Source: Thermodesulfovibrionia bacterium
GTDB lineage: Bacteria; Nitrospirota; Thermodesulfovibrionia; UBA6902
Assembly: GCA_945788685.1 (NCBI GenBank)
Contig: CALZMZ010000009.1
Location: forward strand, 1-50,393
DNA: 50,393 nt
Direction of reading: 5' to 3'
In this document: in pieces, positions 32,210 to 40,842 of the stretch
Layout of the letters: each line of letters begins with the position of its first letter
How positions within the stretch are numbered: the first letter of the stretch is position 1
The notes under the pieces: model-generated
The model's input: the letters and a program-made list of their open reading frames with translations, nothing else
What the model was told of the DNA's origin: nothing
Database searches by the model: none
Position numbers and translations under genes: made by a program

Positions 32210-34606
32210 ATGGGAATGTCAACTGTGGATAAAGATAATATGAAAACAATAACAAAGGGAAGCATATTCCTGTCGCCTTTGTTCAGACGCTTCCTCATGC
32301 CGATCATCCTGACCATGATGGGCTTTACTTTTGCAGTTTATTTCTTTGCTGTACCGTATTTAAAAAATCTTGTCTACTCACTTGAAGAAAGATCGGTAAA
32401 GACCAATCTTCAAAACATTCACAAACTTATTGAAGCGAACTCGCTGGCTATTGATGCATATAAGCAGTCGGTTACATCTGCTCACAAACGACAGCTGAAG
32501 AACATAACCCTTTTTATGGACACGTATCTGAACAATAAATTGAAACAGGTTCAGTATGGAATAATCTCAGAGGACGAAGCGCAGATGACTGCACTGGAAG
32601 AGCTCAGGACGTTCAGATATGGCAAAAACGACTACGTATGGGTGGCCGATTACCAGAGTTTTTATCTATCCCATCCGGACCCCAAAATGAATATGGAAGA
32701 TTTCTCAGAGGTGAGGGACGTTTTCGGCAATTATGTTCTTGCTCCCCTGGTCCAGCACGCAATAGAAAACGGGGAAGGGTATAATTCATTCTGGTGGCAG
32801 CGTCTTGAAAACGATTTGCCTGCTGAAAAACTTACCTATGCAAAATTATTTCCCGAGTGGGAATGGGTGATCGGTACAGGTGTTTATCTGGATGATCTGG
32901 AAATTGAAGTTATAATGCGTAAGGAGAAAATGATTGAGGAATTACGGCAGATTCTTAAACAGATCACGATTGCCAAAACCGGTTACATGTATATTTTTGA
33001 TGCGTGGCACAATATCATTATTCATCCGGATTCTGAACTTGAAAATATGAATATGTCATCATGGGAAAATCCGATCACAGGTAATAAACTCGCAATGGAC
33101 CTGATAGCGGCAACGCACAGCGATAATAATAAAGTTGAATATAAGTGGAACCGGCCTACTGATCAAGGAAGCTATATCTATGACAAAATTGACTGGGTTA
33201 CCCATGTGGATGATTTTGACTGGTACGTGGTGGCCTCGGTGTATACGGATGAACTGAACACCTCATCAATTCTTCTCAGAAATCGAATTTTTATCCTGGC
33301 TGCGGGGGTAGTTATACTTTCGATCATAATTGTTTCCCTGCTTATGAGCAGACTGCTTAATCCCATCCGTCGGCTCTCATACACGGCTGGTAAGGTTAAA
33401 GCCGGGGACCTGACTGCACAAAGCGATGTAAAAGGAAATGATGAGATCGGTTTTCTTGCAAAGGCATTTAATGCTATGATTTCCCAGCTACGTGAAACAA
33501 TCGAGAATCTGGACTATAAGGTGATGGAGCGAACCACGGACCTTAACAGGGCGAATGAGGAATTAATTGTGACTGTTGGAGAACTTGAACAGCATAATCA
33601 GGAAGTGACACAGTTGAACTGGATGGCGGAAAAACTTAATGCCTGTGATACTCTGGATGAGATGTACCTGGTTATTGTGGAATGCATGTCTGCATTGTTC
33701 CATATGGCAAACGGGGTACTCTACATGTCTTTCACTGATGATTATAAAGAAGAGTATCTCCGACCTGTTGCAAAATGGGGAAAGCACCACCATCCTGTTT
33801 CTGAGCATCCATTAGACATATGCAGGTCTTTCCAGAAAGGCAAAGTAATTTTATCTGATGTAAAGCAGGAGACTGATAGAACCTGTCATCATATTCATGG
33901 TGAACCGCCTTATGTATCGCTCTGCGTGCCTCTCATCGGAAAGAATGAAATAATCGGCCTGATTCATCTGCAGTTTTCCGGTACAGAGCAGGAAGTGCAT
34001 ACCATGAGGAACAAGAATATATTTGAACACTGGAAGACTCTTGCAAAATCAGCCTCTGACCATATTGCCATGGCTCTGTCCAACACCAAACTGAGAGAGA
34101 AACTACAGTACCTCTCGGTGAGAGATGGTTTGACTGGTCTGTATAACCGGCGTTACATGGAAGAAACACTGGAACGTGAATTCAAACATGCAGAACGAAA
34201 CACAAGACCGGTCAGCATCATAATCCTGGATGTCGATTTCTTTAAGAAATTTAATGACACCTATGGACACAAAATAGGGGACATTGTTCTGATTGAACTG
34301 GCGAATCTGCTCACTAATACCATTCGTAAAGGGGATGTTGTTTGTCGGTATGGCGGCGAGGAATTCCTGATTATCCTTCCGGGAATACCTGCGGATAAGG
34401 CCAGTGACCGGGCTGAGAAGATACGGAAAGAGGTGGAATTTGGTTTAAAGATAGAGCACAATAAGAAATCGCTGCCAATAACAATTTCTCTGGGTACGGC
34501 AGCATTCCCTGAAAACGGCAACTCTCACGAAGAAGTTCTGAAAGCTGCAGATGATGCTCTTTATAAAGCAAAAGCGCAGGGCAGAAACATTGCTGTATTG
34601 GCATAA
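32210..34606 (+). CDS. Cache-HAMP-GAF-GGDEF diguanylate cyclase
   Basis: Two Cache-like segments (YGKNDYVWVADYQSFYLSHPDPKMNMEDFS; AKTGYMYIFDAWHNIIIHPDS), HAMP, RDGLTGLYNRRYMEE and RKGDVVCRYGGEEFLIILPG (RxxD I-site 5 aa before GGEEF). Confidence 0.95.
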   Translation: MGMSTVDKDNMKTITKGSIFLSPLFRRFLMPIILTMMGFTFAVYFFAVPYLKNLVYSLEERSVKTNLQNIHKLIEANSLAIDAYKQSVTSAHKRQLKNITLFMDTYLNNKLKQVQYGIISEDEAQMTALEELRTFRYGKNDYVWVADYQSFYLSHPDPKMNMEDFSEVRDVFGNYVLAPLVQHAIENGEGYNSFWWQRLENDLPAEKLTYAKLFPEWEWVIGTGVYLDDLEIEVIMRKEKMIEELRQILKQITIAKTGYMYIFDAWHNIIIHPDSELENMNMSSWENPITGNKLAMDLIAATHSDNNKVEYKWNRPTDQGSYIYDKIDWVTHVDDFDWYVVASVYTDELNTSSILLRNRIFILAAGVVILSIIIVSLLMSRLLNPIRRLSYTAGKVKAGDLTAQSDVKGNDEIGFLAKAFNAMISQLRETIENLDYKVMERTTDLNRANEELIVTVGELEQHNQEVTQLNWMAEKLNACDTLDEMYLVIVECMSALFHMANGVLYMSFTDDYKEEYLRPVAKWGKHHHPVSEHPLDICRSFQKGKVILSDVKQETDRTCHHIHGEPPYVSLCVPLIGKNEIIGLIHLQFSGTEQEVHTMRNKNIFEHWKTLAKSASDHIAMALSNTKLREKLQYLSVRDGLTGLYNRRYMEETLEREFKHAERNTRPVSIIILDVDFFKKFNDTYGHKIGDIVLIELANLLTNTIRKGDVVCRYGGEEFLIILPGIPADKASDRAEKIRKEVEFGLKIEHNKKSLPITISLGTAAFPENGNSHEEVLKAADDALYKAKAQGRNIAVLA

Positions 34607-34662: not shown

Positions 34663-35460
34663 TCAGTAAATACGTAGTCCCAGAGCTTTTACTTTTTCCT
34701 GCCAGGTATCTGAAACGGCCATTTTTTGTGCCCTGGATATGAGAGGATGATCCGAGTTTTTCAGGTTATATACCAACCCTACCGGTACACCAATCTCTTG
34801 CATGCCGTTAATATCAAGAATTTTTATATTCCGGCCTGTAAAATTGGGCAATGCACCAAATCCGATATATCCCTTGCCATCTAATGCCCCCTGCATAAGA
34901 GTCATGGTCACATGATTATCTTTTTTTCGAATAACGTCAAATGTAATTTTATTAAATACAGGATACGCTTTTTTAAGAAAACCTAACATGGCCTCGGACG
35001 GTTCACGTCCTATTGTTATTATCGGAAGATTGACTTTATCGTCTATCTCTGACCAGTTTTTAATTTTTTTTGTGAACATATCTTTCAATTGCTGATAACT
35101 TATGGAAGAAATACCGATATGCTCAGAAATTGCGAAAGCGAGAGGAACCCTTGCGAGAAAAATCTCTCCTCTCCCATCGAGCTCTTCTTTTGTGCATGGT
35201 CTGCCTGTCCTGCCAAACAGATAAAGGTCACTCCATTGAAGGCCCCCTGCATGTTTTATGGAATTTTCCGGTGATTCTCCGCCTCCAATAAGAGGCAGAA
35301 ATGCTCTGACAACTTTGGCGCTTGGTCCTGCTCCCTGAATCATCAGATCCTGAGCATGAACACAAACCGGTATGAACAAAAAAAACAGAATAACAGAATT
35401 CTTTACCATTGCTCCCACCACTCTTCGTGAGAAGAACAAAGTTCTTCTCATGGAGTTCAC
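34663..35460 (-). CDS. PstS-like periplasmic binding protein, second orphan copy
   Basis: LMIQGAGPSAKVVRAFLPLIGGG; SYQQLKDMFTKKIKNWSEIDDKVNLPIITIGREPSEAMLGFLKKAY. Confidence 0.75.
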   Translation of the reverse strand: MNSMRRTLFFSRRVVGAMVKNSVILFFLFIPVCVHAQDLMIQGAGPSAKVVRAFLPLIGGGESPENSIKHAGGLQWSDLYLFGRTGRPCTKEELDGRGEIFLARVPLAFAISEHIGISSISYQQLKDMFTKKIKNWSEIDDKVNLPIITIGREPSEAMLGFLKKAYPVFNKITFDVIRKKDNHVTMTLMQGALDGKGYIGFGALPNFTGRNIKILDINGMQEIGVPVGLVYNLKNSDHPLISRAQKMAVSDTWQEKVKALGLRIY

Positions 35461-35557: not shown

Positions 35558-36628
35558 TTATTTCCATCGTTGCTTATACGTGGCCATAAGCCTTGTGACA
35601 GCCAGTTTATTTAATCTGTTTGCTTTTTTATTCATCCCCTTTTGCTCATATATTTCAGCCAGTGCAATTATAACTTCAATATCTGGATCAGGAGCAATAA
35701 AGGCTTTTTCCAGCTCTGTTAATGCCAAGTCAATTTTCCCCTGCCTGTAATAGGTCAGACCAAGTCCTGATATGGCTTCATCTGAATCCGGGTTGATTTT
35801 TAATGCCTTCCTGAACGCAGTTTCAGCCATACCATATTTTTCAGATCCGTGCAGGGCAAAACCCAGTCCGATCTGGGCGCTGGTTATGTCCGGCATCAGT
35901 TTCGCAGCACTGGAAAATTCTCTGACGGCCGGTCCATACATTTTCTTCGACAGCATGATCCTGCCGTAATTAATCCTTCTGATGTATTCTTTCTCTTCTT
36001 TGCTCTTTATGGCTGTTTCTTTTGGCTTAAGCGACTTTATAAACGCAGTCTTGTCCCACTCTTTAAGAAGGAGTTTTATGTTACCCTCAACAAGTTCCCT
36101 GATACGATAGGTGTAGGGTATGACTTCATGGAGTCTGCCGTCTGAGTCTGAAATAACGACCAGTGGCATCATAAAGACACCGTATCGATTATATATGTTT
36201 TTTTCTCTGTCATTATAGACCTTAATGTTTTTGGCAGACTTGTTTATATACGTCTTCACTGTATCGGTCTCCCTGTTGTCGCTGTAAATGCCGATAATGT
36301 TGATTTTTGACTTATATACGTCTGCCAGATCAGACAGGGTTGAAAGAAGGGCGAGAGAACGTTTTTTTCTAAAGTCGGGTCTGATTGAAAAAAACATGAT
36401 AACACCGGGTTTCCCTTTACCAGGTGTAAAGTCCTGTAGTGCAGAACCATTTATGGTAGACAGGTTTATTGGCGGCAGTATATCACCGCTTTTAAAATTG
36501 CGAAGTGTGGCAGATTCTTCGGCCCAGGCGAAATTATTGGTGACCGATACTATACATAGCACGGTTATTATAACAATAAGGCCGGCTGTTAACCTGTTCC
36601 TGCTTATATTCACGATGTCCTGGCTCAT
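35558..36628 (-). CDS. Signal-peptide thioredoxin-fold (redoxin-like, Cys-less) + TPR protein, copy A
   Basis: GDILPPINLSTINGSALQDFTPGKGKPGVIMFFSIRPDFRKKRSLALLSTLSDLADVYKSKINIIGIYSDN, then TPR units (AEFAFRKALKINPDSDEAISGLGLTYYRQGKIDLAL-like). No Cys after the signal peptide. Confidence 0.85.
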   Translation of the reverse strand: MSQDIVNISRNRLTAGLIVIITVLCIVSVTNNFAWAEESATLRNFKSGDILPPINLSTINGSALQDFTPGKGKPGVIMFFSIRPDFRKKRSLALLSTLSDLADVYKSKINIIGIYSDNRETDTVKTYINKSAKNIKVYNDREKNIYNRYGVFMMPLVVISDSDGRLHEVIPYTYRIRELVEGNIKLLLKEWDKTAFIKSLKPKETAIKSKEEKEYIRRINYGRIMLSKKMYGPAVREFSSAAKLMPDITSAQIGLGFALHGSEKYGMAETAFRKALKINPDSDEAISGLGLTYYRQGKIDLALTELEKAFIAPDPDIEVIIALAEIYEQKGMNKKANRLNKLAVTRLMATYKQRWK

Positions 36629-36803: not shown

Positions 36804-37973
36804 TTATTTTGTATTGTTCCCATTAATATGACACCTGATGCAGAGCATCATCATTTCATCTGCTGCCAGAAATTTATCAAATTCGGATGAGTGAGGGTTA
36901 TGACAGCTGACACATGTAAATTGACGGTCATGATTGACCGGATCTTCCGGGCCGGATACAGGATGTCCCATGATCGGATGATTGTTTCCCAGTTTCTCAA
37001 TTTTCGGATGGCATATATAACATGTACTGATAATATCCCTGGGTAGAAAAACCCGGGAATTACTGCCATGTGGATCATGACAGCCCGTACATCCATCCTT
37101 AATTAGTGGTTTGTGCACTTTGTTTTTCTCCATCATCTCCTGCAGATCATGGCAATTGATACACATGGTGGAGACTTCCATTAGCAGAAGATTCTTATCA
37201 TTAGATCCATGCGGGTCATGGCACATGATACATCCCTGCATCGCCACAGGTCCATGAACATATTTATATTGATCGTGTTCCTGTTTTTTATCTTTATGGC
37301 AATCGTAGCATAACGGAGCAACTGCCATTCCTTCCATGATAACAAATTTGATCGGGCCGTTAATTGAATAGTCGGTCTCCACAGCTTCAGCCTGATGGCA
37401 GTTCAGGCATTCCCAGTTAACTCCGGCTGCCTTATGTTGAAATTCAATGCCTGAAAACTTCTGTTTATGGCATGGAAAACAGATGCTTTCTGCAGGTGAG
37501 ACCGGTTGTTTATCATTTTCCTGTACCTCCAGGCGGTGACAGGCAAGACAGGGCTCTTCATTTCTTTCAGTATGAAAGGTATTAAATTCATATTCTTCAG
37601 GTACGAGTTCCTCTTCGAACGTCGATGCATAAAACAGATCTTCCTTAAAAAGGAGATGGTCTCCGTCTACAACACTCACCAGGCTGCTAACCCCATATTC
37701 AAGAGGTATGCGGACATGGACCGATTCAGTATATTCATTCAGGATGAGTTTATCAGATGCCACAGGCTTATTGTTGATCGTTATGATGAGGTTTTCAATA
37801 GGTCCGGCTATTGTCCCTATCCAGGTAATGTGAGACTCAGAAGACCAGATTTTCCGTATTTCCCGGTGTTCAGCATTTGCTGTAGAATCAGACATGAAAA
37901 ATATTATTACGGTGAAAACAATAAGAAGCACCTTCACCATCATACGTACAGACCTTTCAGAGTGTTTATTCAT
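36804..37973 (-). CDS. Decaheme c-type cytochrome (doubled-CXXCH type) with N-terminal beta domain
   Basis: Ten CXXCH: CLACH, CFPCH, CLNCH, CYDCH, CIMCH, CINCH, CTGCH, CYICH, CVSCH, CIRCH; several CxxCHDPHGS contexts. Confidence 0.95.
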   Translation of the reverse strand: MNKHSERSVRMMVKVLLIVFTVIIFFMSDSTANAEHREIRKIWSSESHITWIGTIAGPIENLIITINNKPVASDKLILNEYTESVHVRIPLEYGVSSLVSVVDGDHLLFKEDLFYASTFEEELVPEEYEFNTFHTERNEEPCLACHRLEVQENDKQPVSPAESICFPCHKQKFSGIEFQHKAAGVNWECLNCHQAEAVETDYSINGPIKFVIMEGMAVAPLCYDCHKDKKQEHDQYKYVHGPVAMQGCIMCHDPHGSNDKNLLLMEVSTMCINCHDLQEMMEKNKVHKPLIKDGCTGCHDPHGSNSRVFLPRDIISTCYICHPKIEKLGNNHPIMGHPVSGPEDPVNHDRQFTCVSCHNPHSSEFDKFLAADEMMMLCIRCHINGNNTK

Positions 37974-38027: not shown

Positions 38028-39098
38028 TCATTTCCATCTTTGATCATACATGGTCATCAACCTGGTGATGGCCAGTTTATTTAATCTGTTGGCTTTTTTA
38101 TTATCTCCCTTAAGTTCATATATTTCAGCCAGGGCGATGATAACTTCAAGACGCGGGTTCGTAGTGATAAAAGCGTCTTCCAGTTCGTTTAATGCAGTGT
38201 CTATTTTCCCCTGTTTGTAATGGATCAGGCCGGTTCCGGCAATAGCCTCATCTGAATCCGGATTGATTCTTAATGCCTCCATGAACGAAGCTTCAGCCCT
38301 GTCATATTCTTCAGATGTAAGCAGGGCAAAACCCAGCTCCAGGTGGGCACTTATTAAATTGGGCATCAGTGTCACAGCATTGGAAAATTCCCTGGCTGCC
38401 TGCCCTAACATTTTCTTCGACATCATTATCCTGCCGTAATTGATCCTCCTGATGTATTCTTTCTCCTTCTCACTCTTTATTTCGGGCTGTTTCGGTTTGA
38501 GCGACTTGACAAAAGTGTCCCTGTCCCACTCTCCCAGCAGGAGCTTTATATTGCTCTCAATGATTTCCCTGATACGGAAGGTATATGGTATGACTTCATG
38601 GAGTCTGCCGTCTGTATCTGTTATAACAACCAGGGGCATCATAAAGACGCCGTACTGATTATGTATACTTTTATCTCTGTCATTATAGACCTTTATTTTT
38701 ATGGAAGACTTTTCAATATAGGTCTTCACAATATCTGTCTTTATCTTGTCACTGTAAATGCCAAAGATGTCGATCTTTGTCTTATACGTGTCTGCCAGGT
38801 CGGACAGCGTTGAAAGAAGGGCAAGAGAGCGTTTTTTTCGAAAATCAGGTCGTATTGAAAAAAACATGATAACGCCCGGTTTCCCTTTGCCGGGGGTAAA
38901 GGCCTGCGGCGCCGGATCATTTATGGTAGACAGATTAACAGGCGGCAGTTTTTCCCCATGTTTGAAATTGCGAAGAGTGGCAGTTTCTTCAGCACCGGCA
39001 AAATTAATGGTGAATATTACGATAAACAGGGCAGCAATAACAACAAACAGTCCGGCCGTCAATCTGTTCCATACTGTGCCCCCTGTATGTTCCTTCAT
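38028..39098 (-). CDS. Signal-peptide thioredoxin-fold (redoxin-like, Cys-less) + TPR protein, copy B
   Basis: Paralogue of 35558-36628; identical FTPGKGKPGVIMFFSIRPDFRKKRSLALLSTLSDLAD block; no Cys in the entire 356 aa. Confidence 0.85.
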   Translation of the reverse strand: MKEHTGGTVWNRLTAGLFVVIAALFIVIFTINFAGAEETATLRNFKHGEKLPPVNLSTINDPAPQAFTPGKGKPGVIMFFSIRPDFRKKRSLALLSTLSDLADTYKTKIDIFGIYSDKIKTDIVKTYIEKSSIKIKVYNDRDKSIHNQYGVFMMPLVVITDTDGRLHEVIPYTFRIREIIESNIKLLLGEWDRDTFVKSLKPKQPEIKSEKEKEYIRRINYGRIMMSKKMLGQAAREFSNAVTLMPNLISAHLELGFALLTSEEYDRAEASFMEALRINPDSDEAIAGTGLIHYKQGKIDTALNELEDAFITTNPRLEVIIALAEIYELKGDNKKANRLNKLAITRLMTMYDQRWK

Positions 39099-39114: not shown

Positions 39115-40842
39115 TTAATTATTCTTTACCGGACCCAGCCGGTCATATTTTTTTGGTTTATGGCAACCCACCACACAACCTCCGCCTGTATCTGTTTTTG
39201 TATACTTAAGCGAAATAGTGAACCTTTTCTTAAACGGAATTTTCTCCCGAATATGTTTTTCCTGATCAGAGGCATGAATGTTATGGCATGTATTGCAGTT
39301 TCTGCCGTTCTTTTTGCGGTTCACATGGAGAAAATGGAGGTTCTCTCTGCCGTTTCTAAAGCCAGTAAAAGTGGATTTGCTTTTAAGGACGGTTTCCGGA
39401 GCATGACAACTGAAGCAGAGGGAGAAATTCTCAATATTAAATTCGTTGGCATATTTTTTTGAAAATTTGGCTCTCAGAAGGTCATGGTTATCAGAGCCAT
39501 GAGGCAGGTGGCATTGAGCACAGTCGTCAGTGCGGATAGGTCCGTGCTTGTACATGCTGCCGGTTATCAGCTCTTTCATTTTTTGATGGCATGTGTAACA
39601 GATGTCGGATAAAGGAGCTTTAAGCTGTTTTTTGTTGTTTGTCGAATGAGGAGTATGACAGACTGTGCAATCGCCTTTGAGAACAGGATCATGCTGGACC
39701 GTCCCCTCTTCAATCCAGTAAACAACCTCGGGGTCAAGTTTTCTGTGACATTCCAGACATAATTCCTTGATGGGCTTCTCTACTGGTACATAACTGCCAT
39801 TTTCGTCCTTTTCGCTGCGCAGGTGATTGATGGTTTCAGACCCGTGCGGGTCGTGGCAGATTTTACAGTCTTTTGCTACCGGTTCATGGACATGATCATT
39901 CTGAAATTCATCTTTTCTAACGGAGTGACAGTTAAAGCAGAGGTCATTTCCGCTATCTGATAATAACCACTTATTCTCTGATATATGAGGTACGTGACAG
40001 ACAGTACAGTCTCCTGATTCAACCGGTTCATGCAATACCTTGTGGCTGGTAAAGACTTCCCCATGGCACCCTGCACAAAGTCCCGCTATGGTCTCCCTTT
40101 TCAGGTGGTACTCAAGATTTGATTTATGCGGATCGTGGCAGGATGTGCATTCCCCTTTCAACACCGGAAAGTGCACAACTGCCTTCTCTTTGGTCATTTC
40201 CTCAGCCTCGGTATGACATGAAAAACAGAGGGTGGCCCCAAAGTGTTTGAGGAAGTTTTTTTGCTCACTGCCATGCGGATTATGACATTCAACACAGAGA
40301 CCTGCCTGAAACGGACCGTGAAGGAATTTGCCCTCGTCAAATCCGGGATGGCATTCATTTGTGATACAAGTTATTTGCTGGGTTACTTTTTTATACGAAT
40401 ATATATTGTTCTTAGCAGGGTGACAGAGCGCGCAATCTCTGGTTAAATTACTTTCGCTGTGCAGGTAATAAGGGGTAAAATCATCAGGATAGGCAGTTTC
40501 AGAATCTTTATCCGTAACTAATATTTCAATAGTGTCGAATGTACCTGATGCATCTGACAGGCTTATGGTGTTCCTGCCCTTTGTCAGCTTTACTTCGAGT
40601 TGAAAGTAATTGTCAGCAGGAGTTACTTCATGTTTTCTTTTACCTGCACTGTTTTCTACAGTAACAGAATGATTCTGCTTATCATCTGTTTTTCCTATGA
40701 TGCCGATCTCTGAAGCAGTTACAACAGATTTATCGGCAGGGTAGATAAAATATGCTGATTTTGCGTTAACTGTCTGAACATAAACAATACTGATAGCAAA
40801 GACCAGTGTTAAAAAGATAATTAATTGTTTTATTTTAATCAT
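39115..40842 (-). CDS. Large multiheme c-type cytochrome (14 CXXCH + one CX4CH + one CX3CH) with N-terminal beta domain
   Basis: CXXCH count read from the translation; CITNECH at 40348-40368 and CVVGCH at 39160-39177 verified on the DNA. Confidence 0.95.
   Translation of the reverse strand: MIKIKQLIIFLTLVFAISIVYVQTVNAKSAYFIYPADKSVVTASEIGIIGKTDDKQNHSVTVENSAGKRKHEVTPADNYFQLEVKLTKGRNTISLSDASGTFDTIEILVTDKDSETAYPDDFTPYYLHSESNLTRDCALCHPAKNNIYSYKKVTQQITCITNECHPGFDEGKFLHGPFQAGLCVECHNPHGSEQKNFLKHFGATLCFSCHTEAEEMTKEKAVVHFPVLKGECTSCHDPHKSNLEYHLKRETIAGLCAGCHGEVFTSHKVLHEPVESGDCTVCHVPHISENKWLLSDSGNDLCFNCHSVRKDEFQNDHVHEPVAKDCKICHDPHGSETINHLRSEKDENGSYVPVEKPIKELCLECHRKLDPEVVYWIEEGTVQHDPVLKGDCTVCHTPHSTNNKKQLKAPLSDICYTCHQKMKELITGSMYKHGPIRTDDCAQCHLPHGSDNHDLLRAKFSKKYANEFNIENFSLCFSCHAPETVLKSKSTFTGFRNGRENLHFLHVNRKKNGRNCNTCHNIHASDQEKHIREKIPFKKRFTISLKYTKTDTGGGCVVGCHKPKKYDRLGPVKNN

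Follow-up and report, generated by a model that had tools for sequence, protein, structure and literature searches.

A predicted 16-heme cytochrome from a Thermodesulfovibrionia bacterium with CX4CH and CX3CH motifs at conserved places in a multi-phylum family

The 50,393-nucleotide stretch of Thermodesulfovibrionia DNA analyzed here (below, the window) encodes a multiheme cytochrome which, judging from its sequence, is most likely secreted and holds a chain of 16 hemes, two of them at sites of unusual spacing, one CX4CH and one CX3CH. These two sites are not sequencing noise, as more than 100 related proteins from many bacterial phyla carry them at the corresponding two positions. The explanation which suits the observations best, and which we hold to be probable, is that of an exported, MtrA-like periplasmic wire of 16 hemes, matured by CcsBA with the assistance of a thioredoxin-fold/TPR (Trx/TPR) protein and feeding electrons into conduits.

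The initial annotation had listed 14 CXXCH motifs together with CITNECH and CVVGCH in a protein of 575 aa, and translation and a script count confirmed this exactly to the base (Table 1). The motif order is CXXCH - CX4CH - 13 CXXCH - CX3CH, and all 32 cysteines (32/32) lie within the 16 heme motifs. CVVGCH, described as close to the C-terminus, is indeed the last of the motifs. CITNECH had been placed near the first heme; it is the second motif of the protein and is better described as the first heme site of a 15-heme core, since the preceding CXXCH was added in the 16-heme subfamily. Reading by eye, neither a lipobox nor a known secretion signal was seen in the sequence. The Ig-like assignment of the N-terminal domain draws on a Pfam Glucodextran_B match below the cut-off (E=1.3e-4), on AlphaFold2 (AF2) strands at aa 31-109 and on Ig-domain matches in Foldseek.

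Table 1. Features of the cytochrome gene and its neighborhood (positions in the window).
Feature	Position	Strand	Basis
Putative 16-heme c-type cytochrome gene, 575 aa + stop	39115..40842	-	Translation, motif count
Sec-type signal peptide, aa 1-28 (MIKIKQ...VNA/KS)	40759..40842	-	By-eye reading; AF2 helix 2-22
Ig-like beta-sandwich domain, aa 30-112, 16-heme subfamily feature	40507..40755	-	Pfam, AF2, Foldseek
CALCH, extra first CXXCH in 16-heme subfamily, aa 137-141	40420..40434	-	Motif count, alignment
CITNECH, CX4CH, aa 159-165, second motif; first heme site of 15-heme core	40348..40368	-	Motif count, alignment, tree
13 CXXCH in series, aa 183-520, MtrA-like doubled-CXXCH region	39283..40296	-	Motif count, Pfam, profile and fold search
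CVVGCH, CX3CH, aa 556-561, last heme site, predicted C-terminal beta strands	39160..39177	-	Conserved in 108/108; AF2
Thioredoxin-fold + TPR protein without CxxC, next cassette gene	38028..39098	-	Domain scan, CxxC count
10-CXXCH multiheme cytochrome, third cassette gene	36804..37973	-	Motif count, domain scan
Second thioredoxin-fold/TPR protein without CxxC	35558..36628	-	Domain scan, CxxC count
PstS-like periplasmic binding protein fold, ends co-directional run; cassette membership uncertain	34663..35460	-	Profile scan
dCache-HAMP-GAF-GGDEF sensor beside cassette	32210..34606	+	Domain scan, locus comparison

Here we define a 15/16-heme core family, to which the window cytochrome belongs, by a first core heme motif CX4CH (rarely CX3CH or CXXCH), 13 CXXCH and a last CX3CH, and by the signatures FRNG..NLH..HV and GG.C...CH. 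A paralogue on contig C34 of the same genome (39% identity) reads CX4CH - 13 CXXCH - CX3CH. Strong matches were found in 37 of the 101 genomes searched, nearly all retrieved members having the same motif pattern, and a scan of GTDB species genomes returned at least 551 relatives, from which 80 loci were kept. As labelled or assigned, the lineages are Nitrospirota, Desulfobacterota/Thermodesulfobacteriota, Deferribacterota, Planctomycetota, Sumerlaeota/BRC1, Krumholzibacteriota and Zixiibacteriota, and the family also occurs in metagenome-assembled genomes labelled Myxococcota, Pseudomonadota and Campylobacterota. A 15-heme homologue is encoded by the cultured Geomonas diazotrophica. Loci L078, L086, L089, L098 and L107 (also L060 and L071) encode extended versions, in which the 25 (or 19) motifs begin with CX4CH and end with CX3CH.

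Loss of a flanking Cys in orthologues, named in the initial annotation as evidence that would count against the two sites, was sought in an alignment of 108 homologues and found in none: the two Cys of each site are fully conserved (100%), as is the His of the last CX3CH (108/108), and the His of CX4CH is retained in 107 of the 108. Conservation of Cys and His in more than 100 homologues rules out a chance occurrence. The spacing of the last site is X3 throughout (108/108), and that of the first site is X4 in 101 sequences, X2 in four and longer or rearranged in three. In 20 additional divergent loci the last site is always CX3CH; at the first site three of them have CX3CH and one has CXXCH. 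Wherever the first site has become CXXCH (L076, L087, L088, L118, L174) or CX3CH (L167, L172, L173), the C-C-H pattern is retained, and four CXXCH first sites placed on the tree require four separate changes; such swaps of spacing are expected of a heme site, not of a disulfide. Truncation or a stop ahead of CX3CH was considered for one Nitrospirota family, and in the 20 loci checked CX3CH precedes the stop. Another 199 multiheme frames from these loci contain 1761 motifs, of which 42 (2.4%) are CX3CH and 25 (1.4%) are CX4CH. The earlier remark that CX3CH is the rarer type is therefore right in relation to CXXCH and wrong in relation to CX4CH on these loci.

The fold of the protein was predicted with AF2 from 60 sequences, without heme (mean pLDDT 85.9, compared to 73.5 for an earlier 26-sequence model). 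The pLDDT exceeds 90 across most of the cytochrome body and drops to low values near the first motifs (aa 127-158 and 190-200); CX3CH falls on predicted C-terminal strands (541-549, 553-558 and 564-567) with pLDDT of about 90-95. Chain A of the Mtr complex, 6r2q_A, is the top PDB match both by fold (E 4.7e-7, TM 0.54 by target length) and by profile (2.2e-30). We take this chain to be MtrA, the molecule name 'Cystathionine beta-synthase' in the sequence list presumably being a deposition label. The doubled-CXXCH models PF09699 and TIGR01905 score above their curated cut-offs (234.1 vs 20.6 bits and 222.2 vs 25.2 bits, respectively), and the Pfam Paired_CXXCH match reaches 7e-71. Other curated families scored below their cut-offs, namely the MtrA/DmsE decahemes (TIGR03508, 146.9 vs 192.2 bits), the GSU2203 decahemes (NF041028, 122.8 vs 325 bits) and OmcA/MtrC (TIGR03507, 29.7 vs 209.3 bits). 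MtrA/DmsE proteins are also characterized by ten hemes and a porin next door, and here there are 16 motifs and no porin was recognized among the neighboring genes scanned in the window. The window cytochrome would thus work like MtrA while standing outside the curated MtrA family.

An extracellular location has to be weighed against the periplasmic one. The protein could be a surface or matrix cytochrome that serves as a conduit's terminal partner or as a subunit of a filament, and its Ig-like domain would then be an adhesion module. We regard this as unlikely, although it deserves attention, as the N-terminal Ig-like domain and the absence of a membrane anchor are compatible with it and some relatives are direct neighbors of Uet-like porin clusters (L053, L066, L079, L091, L093, L094, L105). 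However, the missing lipobox or known secretion signal argues against it, the OmcS profile match is weak (0.0003), the Ig domain is absent from the 15-heme core and the best fold match is the periplasmic MtrA.

As for the number of hemes, the potential total of 16 given in the initial annotation is strongly supported, by C-C-H at both odd sites family-wide, by the free histidines and by a precedent in MmcA, in which CX3CH and CX4CH each bind covalent heme according to LC-MS/MS (PMC11024163); this is the only literature precedent that we found for covalent heme on both motif types. An alignment of the 15 sequences of the 16-motif clade, which are 37-80% identical to the window cytochrome, has exactly 16 invariant non-motif His (aa 128, 175, 190, 224, 239, 271, 286, 319, 333, 384, 399, 433, 448, 503, 506 and 523), which suggests one distal ligand per heme; H530 is conserved at 93%. 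In a 26-sequence set of mostly 15-heme forms there are 14 invariant free His vs 15 hemes, so that one heme of these forms may be ligated differently or without a conserved distal His. A branch of the tree (SH-aLRT 92) separates the 16-motif proteins from the rest, and compared to the core they have gained the Ig-like N-terminal domain and one CXXCH ahead of the core. We read the window cytochrome as a putative 16-heme bis-His electron wire. All 16 motifs, CX4CH and CX3CH included, would carry covalent heme, each ligated by the motif His and one distal His; the two odd motifs would bind the hemes at either end of the 15-heme core, with the last heme placed on the C-terminal beta strands, and the subfamily would have added one more heme at the N-terminus together with the Ig-like domain.

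It is very improbable that the 14 CXXCH motifs alone bind heme, with the Cys of CX4CH and CX3CH forming disulfides or binding another metal. The Pfam doubled-CXXCH model represents pairs of CXXCH, and matches to it are silent on the odd sites, and no mass data were found for the 15/16-heme family. Against this stand the heme-bearing sites of both spacings in MmcA (PMC11024163) and the motif His, nearly as conserved as the Cys. In addition, the first site has turned into plain CXXCH four times independently, and the number of free His suits 16 hemes, not 14.

A redox enzyme (e.g., an oxyanion reductase) with a five-coordinate catalytic heme at the odd terminal site, as in SirA or MccA, is highly unlikely. 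In favor of it, atypical motifs mark the active-site heme in SirA/MccA. Against it, the known CX3CH/CX4CH hemes (c3, ImcH, MmcA) are, to our knowledge, electron-transfer ones. In addition, although the sulfite reductase SirA also has an atypical motif, CX12NKGCH (PMC6976685), and the 15-heme forms are one invariant free His short of the heme number, the two numbers are equal in the 16-heme clade, leaving no obvious open heme, and MtrA, the fold match, is a wire and not a reductase. The hemes of the window cytochrome would instead be laid out along an MtrA-like linear path, which would make it an electron wire.

A Trx/TPR gene adjoins the cytochrome gene in 61 of the 71 cases examined (within three genes downstream in 55 and just upstream in six), including all 16-heme genes (13/13), and an 8- or 10-heme cytochrome follows in at least 23. 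None of the 79 Trx/TPR homologues has a CxxC, so dithiol chemistry is not expected of this thioredoxin fold. In Shewanella, the gene cluster of SirA, which has an atypical heme, also encodes a Trx-like protein and a TPR chaperone for apocytochrome (PMC6976685). The redox-dead Trx/TPR neighbor is probably a maturation chaperone which holds the apocytochrome. A tie between this gene and the odd motifs was ruled out, as the gene persists beside cytochromes with a CXXCH first site (L076, L087, L118); specificity for the odd motifs is also contradicted by the Trx/TPR protein that follows the all-CXXCH 10-heme gene. Two loci (L043 and L042) have a tandem pair of 16-heme genes with the Trx/TPR gene in between. 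Relatives of the dCache-HAMP-GAF-GGDEF sensor also adjoin the cassette in L040, L041 and L042, and a signalling link to c-di-GMP is possible.

Heme would be attached by CcsBA (system II) synthases, for which the genome has several candidates, with ResB and CcsA/CcmC-type genes on contigs C32, C39, C82 and C2. Also, a CcsA-like cytochrome c assembly gene, assigned from sequence, is located directly upstream of the 15-heme gene in L049, L052 and L056. Elsewhere in the genome there are two conduit-like clusters, which gene content suggests to be Uet-like and Oet-like (compared with PMC10734462, PMC5539420 and PMC10553843). The first one, on C39, comprises a 12-motif cytochrome, two NHL proteins, a barrel-like protein, 5- and 4-heme cytochromes, a PPIase and CcsBA, and the second, on C1, resembles the published Oet conduit with its cytochromes of 16 and 26 hemes. 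No Pfam family matched the barrel-like proteins of either cluster. The window cytochrome would most likely act as a periplasmic relay from quinol chemistry at the inner membrane to outer-membrane porin-cytochrome conduits of Uet- or Oet-like type. The partner conduit is a guess, given that no porin was recognized in the window and that a porin was in view in 10 of the 71 cases.

The 12-motif cytochrome on C39 (L120:2922-4682) has 11 CXXCH and a final CX3CH (CYLNCH), a pattern that was seen in 13 distinct frames; such 'undecaheme' proteins may therefore have 12 hemes. A short relative at L120:10047-11024 has seven motifs, CX4CH-CX2CH-CX2CH-CX2CH-CX4CH-CX2CH-CX3CH, and the same C-terminal FRNG..NLH / CX3CH module as the core family.

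Neither the CX3CH and CX4CH motifs nor their presence in one protein is new, and surveys of iron oxidizers include both in their counts (PMC5566968, PMC10734462). In the open-access literature we found no description of a fixed CX4CH start and CX3CH end in a 15-16-heme chain across phyla together with a Trx/TPR cassette, which is weak evidence of novelty. A larger claim is tentative and on balance doubtful, namely that this is a cross-phylum family of long wires with fixed end pieces, a CX4CH start and a CX3CH beta-hairpin end, that both ends are matured with the aid of the redox-dead thioredoxin-TPR fusion protein as a new kind of dedicated chaperone, and that the unusual spacing fixes the docking hemes' geometry or potential. 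In practice, heme counts based on CXXCH only would miss two hemes per protein in a widespread 15/16-heme family. As CX4CH and CX3CH are kept at the two ends of the chain in many phyla, one can test whether heme geometry or docking selects for motif spacing, and the conserved CxxC-less Trx/TPR neighbor is a concrete candidate for a maturation chaperone in bacteria that make large multiheme cytochromes.

Among known systems, the periplasmic decahemes of the MtrA/DmsE type share with the window cytochrome the doubled CXXCH repeats and, if the present reading is right, a bis-His linear heme chain, but their ten hemes are all attached to CXXCH, and the window gene is without a recognized adjacent MtrB-like porin. 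UetJ is also a doubled-CXXCH protein, and Uet-like 12-motif proteins likewise end in CX3CH and are sometimes encoded in clusters adjacent to members of the family. UetJ, however, has 11-12 motifs and no CX4CH first site, and is embedded with NHL propellers, a PPIase and a porin; in this genome that gene set forms a separate locus on C39 and does not surround the 16-motif window gene, which is thus not UetJ. HmcA and the 16-heme cytochrome 1z1n have the same number of hemes in about 550 aa, but their arrangement is class III c3-like, unlike that of the window cytochrome, and their profile match is partial and weak (E 3e-7 to 3e-5). One CX3CH among CXXCH motifs is also reported for ImcH and for some homologues of CymA (PMC6295460), but these are inner-membrane proteins with N-terminal TM segments and the CX3CH beside them, whereas in the window cytochrome the signal-peptide helix is the sole one predicted by AF2 and CX3CH is the last, C-terminal motif, which argues against ImcH identity. 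MmcA of Methanosarcina acetivorans has both CXXXCH and CXXXXCH, each heme-bearing (PMC11024163), and differs in being an archaeal protein of seven hemes, encoded in the Rnf operon and described as a methanophenazine reductase. Finally, SirA with SirEFGH is similar in that an atypical-heme cytochrome is encoded alongside a Trx-like protein and a TPR chaperone of the apocytochrome (PMC6976685), but SirA is an octaheme sulfite reductase with CX12NKGCH, and its Trx and TPR proteins are separate, whereas here they are fused into one CxxC-less protein.
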